A DNA stretch of 64,000 nt. It comes from Frankiaceae bacterium. Lineage in GTDB: Bacteria > Actinomycetota > Actinomycetes > Mycobacteriales > SCTD01. A program made the position numbers and the translations under genes. Positions 2,723 through 13,010 of this stretch are shown here, one piece after another. Under the pieces are notes generated by a model, which had not been told where the DNA came from, searched no databases, and saw only the letters and a list, made by a program, of their open reading frames with translations. The stretch's first letter is position 1, and each line of letters starts with the position of its first letter. The stretch is from NCBI GenBank assembly GCA_016650445.1, contig JAENVS010000034.1:1-64000 (forward strand). Reading direction: 5' to 3'.

Positions 2723-3597
2723 GCCTGTACGACGGCACGCTCGACGACGAGCCCGTTGACGTGGCTGCGGTCAACGCCGACAACGAGCTGCTCGAGCAGC
2801 TGCGACACGCGCTCAGCCCCGACGCCGCCGTCATCTGGGATGACGACGACGACGAGCTCGACCCTGCGCTTGGCCTGCTGCGCTCGCTCCAGCGCGACGT
2901 GTCCGCCGACCTGCCCAGCGAGTCGGTGCTCCCGCCGCGCATCACCGAGCTGCTGCCGCGCCGTCGTCACCTCGGCCGGGGCGCGACCGTGGCCCTCGTC
3001 ACCGCCGGTGTGCTGTCGATCGGTGGCGTCGCTGCCGCGTCCGCACCGGGGCAGCCCCTGTCCGGCGTGCGCTCAGCTGTGTCCTCCGCGGTTTCCGACG
3101 TTGTCAGCGCCATCACGCCGGACGCACCGGTCGGTCCCGATCTCGTCAAGCCCAGCCTCAGCCCGCGTCCGACCGTTACGCCGACTCCTCCCGGTCAGCT
3201 GGTCAGCGCGGCCGCGCGGTCGGCCTCGGCGGCGTTGCAGATCGAGGCCAATCTCGACCGCGCCGAACGGCTCCTCGACGACGGCAGGTACGCCGCGGCG
3301 GAAGCCCAGCTCGATGCCGCGGTGCACAAGCTGCCGTTCCTGCTGCCGGGTGCGGACCTGGACCGCCTCACCTCTCGGTTGATCGACCTGCAGACGCGGT
3401 TCGCGAACGGTCCCGACCCGAAGGCGTCGCACAAGCCTGACGACAAGGGCGCACCCGAGGGCAAGGGCAAGAGCGCCAGCAGCAGCCCGCGCTCGGACAG
3501 CAGCGGGCGGGGCAGCGACCCTTCACCCGGCGCCCGGCCGACCGCGCTCCCCAGTGGTAGCGCACGCTCGGGCGAGTTCCCTGGCGAGGCCCGCTAG
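2719..3597 (+). CDS. rsdA: Membrane-anchored anti-sigma-D factor, RsdA-like
   Basis: The 292-residue protein has an acidic cytoplasmic N-terminus containing [14 protein letters not shown] (about residues 19-32), resembling the short sigma-binding helix of mycobacterial RsdA. A run of Asp residues follows at 41-46. One membrane segment lies at 88-108 ([20 protein letters not shown]). The rest is a long external region that is Pro/Ser/Lys rich at its end, with a helical stretch at about 165-230. In Mycobacterium, RsdA holds SigD at the membrane and is released by regulated proteolysis. The ATG overlaps the sigma-factor stop by 4 bp, the usual layout for a sigma/anti-sigma pair. Its TAG shares a CTAG tetranucleotide with the stop of the convergent DUF5319 gene. 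Confidence 0.75.
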
Positions 3598-3977
3598 CCG
3601 TCCAGCGCGGCGTCCGCGAAGCCGCGGGCGTACTCCCAGCTGACGTAGTCGGCGGGATCCGGCGAGAACGCCGGCTCGTGCACGCGCGTTGTGCCTTGGT
3701 CGAGCAGGTGGCGCAGATTGCCCCTGAGCAGGTCCCAGGCGAAGTAGTGCGGCTCGCGGCAGTCCTCGCAGTCCACCACCAGGCCCTTGATGCCGCGCGG
3801 CGACAGCAGGGCCTCGAAGACCTCGAGGTCCTCGAGGTCCTCGAGCACGTCCTCGCGCTCCAGCGGCGAGAGCGGCTCCAGCGCGGCGTCCGGGTCCCCG
3901 TCCAGGGCGGCGAGCTCCTGGGCAGGGTCGTCGGGATCGCCGCTGAACGGGTCGACGGGGTCCGCGGGTGGCGTCAT
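3594..3977 (-). CDS. DUF5319 family protein
   Basis: This 127-residue soluble acidic protein has an N-terminal Pro/Asp/Glu-rich half. The conserved C-terminal half has a CxxC pair (Cys70, Cys73 in VVDCEDC) followed by HYFAWDLLRGNLRHLL. This matches the DUF5319 family, which sits next to sigD/rsdA and guaB in many actinobacteria (Rv3412 in M. tuberculosis). The function is unknown. ATG 3977 is preferred over upstream in-frame codons because a TACGCT -10 element lies only 7 nt before it, and the extra N-terminus would be low-complexity sequence antisense to the guaB leader. Its stop overlaps that of the RsdA-like gene tail to tail. Confidence 0.75.
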   Translation of the reverse strand: MTPPADPVDPFSGDPDDPAQELAALDGDPDAALEPLSPLEREDVLEDLEDLEVFEALLSPRGIKGLVVDCEDCREPHYFAWDLLRGNLRHLLDQGTTRVHEPAFSPDPADYVSWEYARGFADAALDG

Positions 3978-3984
3978 CCCTGTC

Positions 3985-3990
3985 AGCGTA
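3985..3990 (-). promoter_or_regulatory. -10 element (TACGCT) of DUF5319, leaderless type
   Basis: Read on the minus strand, TACGCT ends 7 nt before the ATG at 3977. That spacing would place the transcription start at or next to the start codon. No Shine-Dalgarno sequence is present. This is an inference from spacing only. Confidence 0.45.
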
Positions 3991-4077
3991 GGCGAGCGGG
4001 GTGCGTCGCAACACCAGCGTGAGCGCGTTGCGTCGTACGATGACTCTTTTCCCCGAGGCTCGCGCCGGGAAGGTGAC

Positions 4078-6753
4078 ATGGACCCCTTCGAAGACGCCGC
4101 CACGGACACGCGGGACGCCTACGCAGCGAAGTTCCCCCTGCTGGGCCTGACGTTCGACGATGTGCTGCTGCTGCCTGGCGAGACCGACGTCATCCCCAGC
4201 GAGGTCGACACGACGACCCGGCTGACCCGGGGGATCTCGCTGCGCGTGCCGCTCATCTCCAGCGCGATGGACACCGTCACCGAGTCGCGCATGGCGATCG
4301 CGATGGCCCGCCAGGGCGGCCTGGGCATCCTGCACCGCAACCTGTCGATCGAGGACCAGGCCTACCAGGTCGACCTCGTGAAGCGCACGCAGACGGGGAT
4401 GATCAGCAACCCGATCACGATCGGCCCGAAGGCGACGCTGGAGGACCTCGACGAGCTGTGCGGTCAGTACCGCGTCTCCGGGCTGCCGGTGGTCGACGAC
4501 GACACGACGCTGATCGGCATCATCACCAACCGCGACCTGCGTTTCGTCCCCGTCGCCGACTGGGCGTCGACGCACGTCGCCGACGTCATGACGCCGATGC
4601 CGCTGGTCACCGCGCCGATCGGCATCTCGCGCGAGGACGCGACGGCGCTGCTGCGCAAGCACAAGCGCGAGCGGTGGCCGAGCGTCGACGCCCAGGGCCG
4701 GCTCGCGGGGCTCATCACCGTGAAGGACTTCGTGAAGTCCGAGCAGTTCCCCGACGCGACGAACGACAGCCACGGCCGGCTCATGGTCGGTGCGGCGGTC
4801 GGCTACTTCGGTGACGCATGGGAACGCGCCACGACCCTTGTCGAGGCGGGCGTCGACGTGCTCGTCCCCGACGTCGCCAACGGCCACGCCCGCCTGATGC
4901 TCGACATGATCCGGCGGCTGAAGAAGGACTCCGCGACGCGGCACGTTCAGGTCCTCGCCGGCAACGTCGCCACGCAGGCGGGCGCACAAGCACTCGTCGA
5001 CGCTGGTGCCGACGGGGTAAAGGTTGGGGTCGGGCCTGGATGCTTCGGCGCAGGCACGCGCATCCTGATGGCTGACGCGACGTACAAGAACATCGAGGAC
5101 GTCGAGGCCGGCGACCGTGTCATCACGATGTACGGCAAGCCCGCAACGGTGCTGAAGAGCTGGTGCACCGGCACCCGCGAGGTCATGGCCGTCCGCCACG
5201 TGGCCTCCGGCGCCGAGACCGTTGCGACGCCGGACCACCGCTTCTTCGTCGGGGACCTGTCCACCGTCTCGCCGGCTTCGGTGCTCTCCAGGGGCTATGC
5301 AAAGGCGCTAGCGCAGCCGACTCGCTTCGGTCTCTCCAAGCTCGGCTGGAAGGACATCGGACAGGTCGACCGCGATGTGCTCCTCATGCCGCGCCACGTT
5401 CACTTCGAGCTCCCCGAGTTCCTCGAGTTCAACCTGGAGGACTTCGCTGTACGCCGTGACAAGCAGCTCGCCCGCTACGAGCGCACGATTCGGGACAGCG
5501 AAGACCTCGGATTCCTCATTGGAACGTTCCTCGGCGATGGCCACGCCTTCCTCAACACGGTTCGAAACTCCGACATCGGTCGCGTGACCTGGTACTTCGG
5601 TGCGCACGAGACCGAGCTCGCGGAGAAGCTCTGCGATGTGGTCGAGCGGGTCACCGGTGTCCGGCCGACCGATGGAGGGACCAAGGCTGGTTGCCGTCAC
5701 CTGCACCTGTACTCGTTGCAGTGGGCTCGGCTCCTGGCCCAATGCGGCAAGAAGACAGACAAGCACCTTCCGGCGGGCTGGCTGACGGAGAACCCGGACT
5801 ACCAGCGCGGGCTCCTGGACGGGCTCGTCGCATCCGACGGCTTCGTCGATGGCAGCGGCCGGGTCTGCTTCAAGAACACCTCCCGCGCACTGTCCGAGCT
5901 GTTCGGCGTTCTCTGCCTGCTCGTTCACGGCGCACTGCCCAATGTTGAGACCGAGGCGGGGTCTGCCGGCGGCCTGAAGGGCGTCCGTGACGAGGATTGC
6001 GCCACGTCGTACAAGTCCCGTTTGAACGTCACGCACGCCAAGCGGCATCTCGACGAGCACAGCGTCGTGAAGCTCCTGGGCACCCGCTCGATTGATGGGG
6101 CCGTTCCCGTCTACGACCTGGAGATCGACGACGACAGTCACAGCTTCATCGCTGACAACGCCATCGTGCACAACTCCATCTGTACGACGCGCGTCGTCGC
6201 TGGCGTGGGTGTCCCACAGGTGACGGCAATCTTCGAAGCAGCTCGTGCATGCCATCCGGCCGGCGTACCGGTGGTGGGTGATGGCGGGCTGCAGTACTCC
6301 GGAGACATTGCTAAGGCGCTCGTCGCCGGCGCCGACTGCGTGATGATCGGCTCGCTGTTCGCCGGTTGCGACGAGAGCCCCGGTGACCTGATCTTCGTCA
6401 GCGGCAAGCAGTACAAGGCCTATCGCGGCATGGGCTCGGTCGGCGCGATGGCCTCACGGGGCAAGCGCTCCTACTCCAAGGACCGCTACTTCCAGGCTGA
6501 CGTCGCCTCCGACGACAAGATCGTGCCGGAGGGCATCGAGGGTCAGGTGCCGTACCGCGGGCCGCTGTCCGCGGTGACGCACCAGCTCGTCGGCGGGTTG
6601 CACCAGTCGATGTTCTACGTCGGCGCGCGCACCATCCCCGAGCTGCAGGAGCGCGGCCAGTTCGTGCGCATCACCGCTGCCGGGTTGAAGGAGAGCCACC
6701 CGCACGACATCCAGATGACCGTCGAGGCGCCCAACTACACCGGCGGTCGCTGA
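4078..6753 (+). CDS. guaB: IMP dehydrogenase GuaB containing an intein
   Basis: GuaB oxidises IMP to XMP with NAD+, the committed step to GMP. Removing the intein (5041-6174) leaves a 513-residue enzyme, a normal length. The N-terminal barrel begins with [10 protein letters not shown] and has the conserved SSAMDTVTE. Two CBS domains lie at about residues 115-235. The barrel resumes with the active-site loop GPG|SICTTR, whose Cys is the catalytic thiolate. The intein separates GPG from SICTT, so unspliced protein cannot be active and splicing is essential. ATG 4078 has GGAAGG upstream and a TACGAT -10 candidate at 4036-4041. guaB3 starts 3 bp after the stop, and guaA lies 4.7 kb downstream. 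Codons bordering the intein on both sides are unusually A/T-ending (see findings). Confidence 0.96.
5041..6174 (+). other. Intein with LAGLIDADG homing endonuclease, inserted in the GuaB active-site loop
   Basis: This 378-residue in-frame insert starts with Cys1 ([10 protein letters not shown]) and ends with His377-Asn378, followed by extein Ser. These are the residues needed for canonical class 1 splicing. Block B shows TPDH (63-66). The endonuclease motifs are [12 protein letters not shown] (156-167) and [12 protein letters not shown] (256-267), each retaining an acidic Asp (166 and 266), so both splicing and homing nuclease activity look intact. Block F is [17 protein letters not shown]. 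Third codon positions carry visibly more A/T than surrounding genes, consistent with horizontal arrival. The insertion point is two residues before the catalytic Cys of IMP dehydrogenase. Confidence 0.95.
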
Positions 6754-6756
6754 CGC

Positions 6757-7932
6757 ATGGCAGACGTCGAGATCGGCATCGGCAAGTCCGGTCGTCGTGC
6801 GTACGGGTTCGACGACATCGCCGTCGTCCCGTCCCGGCGCACCCGCGACCCGGAGGACGTCTCGATCGCGTGGGAGATCGACGCCTACCGGTTCGAGCTG
6901 CCGCTGGTCGCGTCGGCGATGGACGGCGTCATGTCACCGGACACCGTCGTCACGCTCGGTCGTCTCGGCGGTCTCGGTGTCCTCAACCTCGAAGGCCTCT
7001 GGACGAGGTACGACGACCCGGGGCCGTTGCTGACGGAGCTGGCCGAGCTCCCGCCCGAGCGCGTCACCGCGCGGATGCGCGAGATCTACGCCAAGCCGAT
7101 CGAAGGCGGGCTCATCAAGGACCGGATCTCGCAGATCCGCGATGCCGGCGTCACTGTCGCGGCATCACTCACGCCGCAGCGCACCGTGCAGTTCGCGCAG
7201 ACGGTCATCGACTCGGGTGTCGACATCTTCGTCATCCAGGGCACGGTGGTCTCCGCGGAGCACGTGTCGTCCCGCGCGGAGCCGCTCAACCTCAAGCGCT
7301 TCATCGCCGAGCTCGACGTGCCGGTGATCGTCGGCGGCTGCGCGACGTATCAGTCGGCGCTGCACCTGATGCGCACGGGCGCCGCCGGCATCCTCGTCGG
7401 AGTCGGCCCGGGGCAGGCCAACACGACGCGCGCGGTCCTCGGCATCGGCGTACCGATGGCGACGTCCATCGCCGACGCGGCCGGAGCCCGCCGTGACTAC
7501 CTGGACGAGTCAGGCGGTCGCTACGTGCACGTCATCGCCGACGGGGGCATGCGCACCGGCGGCGACATCGCGAAGGCGATCGCGTGCGGCGCCGACGCGG
7601 TGATGATGGGCAGCCCGCTCGCGCGCGCGACCGAGGCGCCCGGTCGCGGGTGGCACTGGGGCCACGCCGCGCACCACCCGGTGCTCCCGCGCGGCACCCG
7701 GCTCAAGGTCGAGCAGGTCGGCACTCTGGAGCAGGTGCTGCTCGGTCCCGCCTGCACCGACGACGGCTCGACCAACCTGTTCGGCGGGCTGCGCCGCGCG
7801 ATGGCGATGACCGGCTACTCCTCGATCAAGGAGTTCCAGAAGGTCGAGGTCATGGTGGCGCCGTCGCTGCGGACCGAGGGCAAGGACCTGCAGCAGGCGC
7901 AGGGGACCACGACGGGCGCAGACGCGCGGTAG
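6757..7932 (+). CDS. guaB3: GuaB3-family IMP dehydrogenase-related protein
   Basis: This 391-residue protein is a single TIM barrel without CBS domains, as in GuaB3 proteins of actinobacteria and cyanobacteria. Family features are FDDIAVVPSRRTRDPEDV near the start and DESGGRYVHVIADGGMRTGGD. Where GuaB has GPGSICTTR, this protein has GPGQANTTR (7408-7428), so residue 222 is Asn in place of the catalytic Cys. The covalent IMPDH/GMP-reductase mechanism therefore cannot operate in the usual way. The biochemical role of GuaB3 is unsettled, and GMP reductase activity has been reported for some members. The ATG starts 3 bp after the guaB stop, so the two are almost certainly cotranscribed and possibly coupled. 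Confidence 0.85.
   Translation: MADVEIGIGKSGRRAYGFDDIAVVPSRRTRDPEDVSIAWEIDAYRFELPLVASAMDGVMSPDTVVTLGRLGGLGVLNLEGLWTRYDDPGPLLTELAELPPERVTARMREIYAKPIEGGLIKDRISQIRDAGVTVAASLTPQRTVQFAQTVIDSGVDIFVIQGTVVSAEHVSSRAEPLNLKRFIAELDVPVIVGGCATYQSALHLMRTGAAGILVGVGPGQANTTRAVLGIGVPMATSIADAAGARRDYLDESGGRYVHVIADGGMRTGGDIAKAIACGADAVMMGSPLARATEAPGRGWHWGHAAHHPVLPRGTRLKVEQVGTLEQVLLGPACTDDGSTNLFGGLRRAMAMTGYSSIKEFQKVEVMVAPSLRTEGKDLQQAQGTTTGADAR

Positions 7933-11456: not shown

Positions 11457-13010
<1,554 letters not shown>

Follow-up and report, generated by a model that had tools for sequence, protein, structure and literature searches.

The window analysed here was a stretch of 64,000 nucleotides at the start of contig JAENVS010000034.1 from a Frankiaceae bacterium (assembly GCA_016650445.1). 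Its forward strand carried a guaB gene with an in-frame insert, the guaB3 gene immediately after it and, further downstream, the C-terminal domain of guaA (Table 1). The two halves of the GuaB protein that flanked the insert had the features by which an IMP dehydrogenase is recognised, namely a TIGR01302 match across both halves (554 bits vs the cut-off of 481.5), a CBS pair (66.9 bits) and the catalytic Cys loop. They aligned end to end with solved IMP dehydrogenases, and the gap in these alignments coincided exactly with the insert.

Table 1. Features of the guaB locus and of the neighbouring GMP pathway genes in the window
Feature	Position	Strand	Description
guaB precursor	4078..6753	+	891 aa; IMP dehydrogenase interrupted by the intein, with CBS domains; TIGR01302 (554 bits), PF00478, PF00571; AAGG precedes the ATG
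N-extein	4078..5040	+	321 aa; C-terminal GVGPG
A/T-ending codon patch, upstream part	4981..5040	+	codons -20 to -1
Intein	5041..6174	+	378 aa; Cys1 at the start, His-Asn at the end; full-length homologues share this junction
N-terminal splicing (Hint) part	5041..5415	+	Cys1; block B TPDH at 5227-5238; from PF05203 and alignments; domain end approximate
LAGLIDADG endonuclease part	5416..5997	+	D166 (5536-5538), D266 (5836-5838); LAGLIDADG_3; model helices 154-166 and 252-266; boundaries approximate
C-terminal splicing part	6073..6174	+	TIGR01443 above cut-off; invariant D359, H367, H377, N378
C-extein	6175..6753	+	+1 Ser is its first residue; 6181-6183 encodes the catalytic Cys
A/T-ending codon patch, downstream part	6175..6312	+	codons 0 to about +45
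guaB3	6757..7932	+	TIGR01304 (590 bits); next gene after guaB; no intein; GPGQANTTR, no catalytic Cys
guaA (GMP synthase), C-terminal domain	12060..13007	+	TIGR00884 (487 bits); intein-free, intact

An earlier note on this DNA had described an insert of 378 residues between GPG and SICTT, and its coordinates proved to be exact, with the reading frame kept and no stop. Removal of the insert from the precursor leaves 513 residues (891-378), the length that the note had given for the spliced product. The note had also placed the insertion beside the catalytic Cys of the enzyme. This Cys was residue +3 after the insertion, so the active-site loop was interrupted in the precursor, and GuaB would presumably be inactive before splicing.

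The genome (3.44 Mb in 50 contigs, 92% complete) had a single TIGR01302 enzyme, the only one recognised for the first committed step towards GMP; no second one and no GuaB1 appeared among the matches listed from the search of this assembly. A second IMP dehydrogenase that could rescue GuaB was considered and rejected, as none was found and the PF00478 matches besides guaB3 were weak (E 5e-10 and 3e-7). In Mycobacterium tuberculosis, GuaB3 likewise lacks the catalytic Cys, and GuaB2 is the only active, essential IMP dehydrogenase (PMC4594927). Since the enzyme was single, GuaB1 was not found and GuaB3 had no catalytic Cys, intein splicing is very probably needed for de novo GMP synthesis, as judged from the gene content. 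The earlier view that GMP synthesis as a whole depends on splicing was correct for this route but too strong overall, because the genome encoded the purine phosphoribosyltransferase gene hpt and guanine salvage is possible.

Splicing and endonuclease parts of the insert

The translated insert ran from CFGAG to AIVHN, without stops and in frame between GVGPG and SICTTR. It matched the Hom_end_hint, LAGLIDADG_3 and intein C-terminal (intein_Cterm) profiles above their cut-offs. All the splicing residues were present (Cys1, T63-P-D-H66, D359, H367, H377-N378 and Ser+1), among them Cys1, TPDH, the terminal His-Asn and the +1 Ser that had previously been listed as intact. Among 21 aligned homologues, T63, H66, D359, H367, H377 and N378 were invariant and Cys1 was nearly so. 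The features of a class-1 intein were all found: Cys1, the block B TxxH, the block F Asp and His, the terminal His-Asn, the +1 Ser and the Hint fold. We assigned 5041-6174 to a class-1 intein, whose splicing activity is predicted from these intact residues.

The AlphaFold model of the intein, made with 21 sequences, had a pLDDT of 93.0 and a pTM of 0.91; it superseded a poor first model made with 10 sequences (pLDDT 64.6). Its best match among solved folds was the TliVMA intein-endonuclease 7qsu (TM 0.70, E 3e-17), followed by PI-SceI, and the Mxe GyrA intein was matched as well.

The LAGLIDADG_3 score was 26.1 bits vs a cut-off of 22.5, and both catalytic Asp residues were kept, D166 in FLGDG and D266 in VASDG, as is required of a two-motif LAGLIDADG homing endonuclease. 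The second motif read LVASDG, with its first, non-catalytic Asp replaced by Ala, so that the earlier description of both motifs as intact held for the catalytic residues with this one qualification. The dN/dS values were 0.09-0.24 in the splicing and endonuclease parts alike, pointing to purifying selection on both. In two other GuaB inteins the splice residues were kept and the endonuclease had lost its catalytic Asp, in the second motif of L010 (SGG) and in both motifs of L104 (FLGGG and AGGG). Because of these two copies, mobility should not be assumed for every member of the group.

The same decayed relatives, the substituted residue of the LVASDG motif and the sister position of the window intein and that of genome G001 in the intein tree would suit an endonuclease that is now inactive in the window lineage, leaving a splicing-only intein that is inherited vertically. 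We consider this unlikely, since both catalytic Asp residues were present in the window intein, and in its comparison with the G001 intein dN/dS was as low in the endonuclease (0.09) as in the splicing part (0.13).

Distribution among bacteria and phages

Six of the 24 genomes of the window's own family had the same intein at the same GuaB junction (G000, G001, G008, G010, G014 and G017, the last copy being interrupted by a contig end), and 12 members of the family had a readable intein-free GuaB. Further carriers, which included other Actinomycetota, were found in two of 396 additional genomes of a phylum draw (G257, G519) and in three of 296 genomes of a class draw (G541, G626, G627), as well as in MAGs (L010, labelled Thermoleophilia; L009, Actinobacteria; L008, Myxococcales). 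The GuaB closest to that of the window, from the same genus (G003, 93% identical exteins), was intein-free. The Myxococcales intein was 58% identical to the window intein, and the corresponding exteins were 51% identical. In the intein tree, G010 and G014 from the window's family grouped with G541 from another family. Monophyly of the six inteins of the family was rejected (AU p=0.001), and the grouping of the inteins was rejected by the exteins (p 5e-5). We infer that the intein moves horizontally between lineages, because its distribution was patchy and the intein tree rejected family monophyly. The bacterial distribution, phylogeny, selection and decayed copies would together form the picture expected of a homing cycle.

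These data also bear on the idea that the insert was chimeric, created in assembly, or else a dead insertion inactivating GuaB. The assembly was a draft of 50 contigs and the interrupted gene was the only TIGR01302 gene found, both of which could raise such a suspicion. The same junction and frame recurred, though, in many separate assemblies, phage contigs included, and the insert was under purifying selection with its splice residues kept across the 21 homologues. The chimera, which the earlier note had named as one outcome that would overturn its reading, was thereby excluded by independent genomes, and artefact or dead insertion taken together seem exceedingly improbable.

Two intein-free GuaB sequences had Ala at +1, GAG/AICTT in L077 (genome G011) and GPG/AICTT in L036 (genome G037), where the slash is the insertion point. 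With Ala at this position splicing would not be expected, and such alleles may be protected from the intein. The window genome had other inteins as well, two in its DnaB (L087, contig C17) and one in RecA (L089, contig C1).

When phage and plasmid records were searched with the intein, the similarity found was weak and of the Hint or LAGLIDADG kind, and IMG/VR was the informative collection. There, contigs of 24-394 kb had relatives of the intein (25-43% identity) inside phage IMP dehydrogenase-like and GMP reductase genes. Genes near the phage copies included thymidylate synthases, an ATP-dependent DNA ligase and a tail-fibre match. The phage junction was GxG/S in the catalytic-Cys loop in all copies except L013 (3449-5536), in which the intein was placed two residues earlier (GIG/SGGLCTT), as though the insertion point had shifted to the next usable Ser. 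Three phage GMP reductases (L091, L092 and L093; ORFs from about 3400 to 5700) carried the same intein in the homologous catalytic-Cys loop, and L091 and L092 scored above the NCBIfam GMP reductase cut-off NF003470 (475 and 487 bits vs 397). In an unrooted intein tree the bacterial inteins formed one clade (100/98), placed beside the phage GMP reductase inteins. One more relative (34%) lay in a non-homologous protein of a phage contig (L168, 1711-4476) with the junction IPG/SMGAASYVL; from its motifs, this host protein is tentatively read as RtcB.

Codon composition around the insertion point

The guaB codons on both sides of the intein formed a patch rich in A/T-ending codons. GC3 was 62% between codons -20 and +39 vs 95% in the rest of guaB (Fisher P 7e-12), and none of 20,000 shuffles was as extreme. 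The intein itself had a GC3 of 85%. A matching patch was present at the empty site of the intein-free G003, G006, G020, G011, G022 and G004 (P<0.01), and the intein carriers G001 and G008 had none. Patches were found in six of 12 intein-free GuaB genes of the window's family vs four of 50 sampled from other families (Fisher P 0.002, in a post hoc comparison that ignored kinship). Co-conversion from one low-GC donor was unconvincing as the sole cause of the patch, given the GC3 of the intein and the patch-free carriers.

The patch is possibly a trace left by earlier homing, or by recoding that counters homing; local constraint or recombination might also have produced it. If the patch in intein-free relatives were confirmed, past occupancy by an intein could be read from empty sites. 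It is quite possible, if still tentative, that one intein lineage circulates between bacterial guaB and the IMP dehydrogenase or GMP reductase genes of large phages, crossing between paralogues at the catalytic-Cys loop, and that its repeated gain and loss left the codon footprint in intein-free alleles.

Proposed explanation and comparison with known systems

With high confidence, and from gene and model evidence, we interpret the insert as a class-1, endonuclease-bearing mobile intein in the catalytic loop of GuaB, predicted to splice itself out and to home. By the standard class-1 chemistry that its intact residues imply, Cys1 would take the acyl group of Gly(-1), Ser+1 would then attack this acyl group, and cyclisation of Asn378 would free the intein. 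An acyl shift would then give a normal 513-residue IMP dehydrogenase with GPGSICTT restored. The LAGLIDADG part would cut intein-free guaB at the conserved site, and the repair would copy the intein in. By such cutting and copying the element would continue to spread from lineage to lineage, and its relatives occur in large phages with IMP dehydrogenase or GMP reductase genes. The horizontal spread described above lends indirect support to the predicted cleavage. We regard the intein as a selfish mobile element lodged in a strongly conserved active site, and most likely it costs its host little or nothing and does not act as a regulator.

A regulatory role was nevertheless considered, in which redox- or temperature-responsive splicing would act as a post-translational switch that gates GMP synthesis. 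The interrupted active site of the precursor and the thiols of two residues, Cys1 and the catalytic +3 Cys, would be compatible with it, and mycobacterial DnaB inteins reportedly splice conditionally (PMC6195587). However, the patchy presence and the intein-free closest relatives indicated no dependence on the intein, selfish homing would explain both the horizontal movement and the upkeep of the endonuclease, and nothing measured pointed to sensing. Moreover, splicing by IMPDH-1, an intein of the same site, is rapid across 25-60 degrees C (PMC11766414). The switch therefore appears improbable, and the redox or temperature sensitivity that had been proposed from Cys1 was unsupported speculation, as Cys1 is usual in class-1 inteins.

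The host genes of the intein include that of GMP reductase, a paralogue whose reaction between GMP and IMP runs the other way. The full, endonuclease-dead and split forms at one site constitute a natural series for studying intein life cycles, and the phage relatives are a candidate route by which inteins could be brought into bacterial metabolism.

In the open papers searched, an intein was described for neither GuaB nor GMP reductase, and the NCBIfam matches listed included no model of a GuaB with an intein. A search for inteins at the same insertion point, which the earlier note had suggested as a check, led to the site being recognised as already catalogued through IMPDH-1. This is a natural split intein from metagenomes with the native junction GGG-SIC (PMC12350263, PMC11271493), belonging to class 1 with Cys1 and Ser+1 (PMC11766414). 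The window intein shares with it the class, both of these residues and the insertion between G and SIC (GPG/SIC in the window, GGG/SIC in IMPDH-1). The two differ in that IMPDH-1 is encoded by two genes without LAGLIDADG and resides in a phage IMP dehydrogenase without CBS domains, whereas the window intein is a contiguous protein of 378 residues with LAGLIDADG in a bacterial guaB. With a putative IMPDH-1 N-fragment sequence serving as a probe, we found four phage loci (L139-L142; L139 and L140 at 95% identity) that we take to be those of IMPDH-1. In these loci the phage IMP dehydrogenase was split, with the junctions GIGGG/C... and ...HN/SICSTR, and in L140-L142 a separate ORF resembling a freestanding endonuclease lay between the split-intein halves. 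Between the window intein and the N-part of IMPDH-1, identity was 29% across 77 residues (one comparison gave E 1e-5), which is within general Hint similarity, so that the two splicing domains may or may not share descent.

Two other groups of inteins offer more distant parallels. The VMA-type intein-endonucleases (PI-SceI, TliVMA and PhoVMA) similarly nest a two-motif LAGLIDADG domain in a Hint fold, but they occupy another site in another host protein and are 13-18% identical to the window intein. Replication proteins such as DnaB and RecA also have inteins in their active sites, at conserved catalytic motifs of essential genes (PMC5874633), whereas the host in the window is an enzyme of the purine pathway. 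The window intein is a real, intact and apparently mobile element at a known intein site; as a contiguous LAGLIDADG intein, it appears to be uncatalogued both in the guaB of bacteria and in the GMP reductase of phages. The site of IMPDH-1, known for a fast split intein used in biotechnology, is thus also occupied, in phages and on the chromosomes of bacteria, by an intein that is contiguous and bears an endonuclease.
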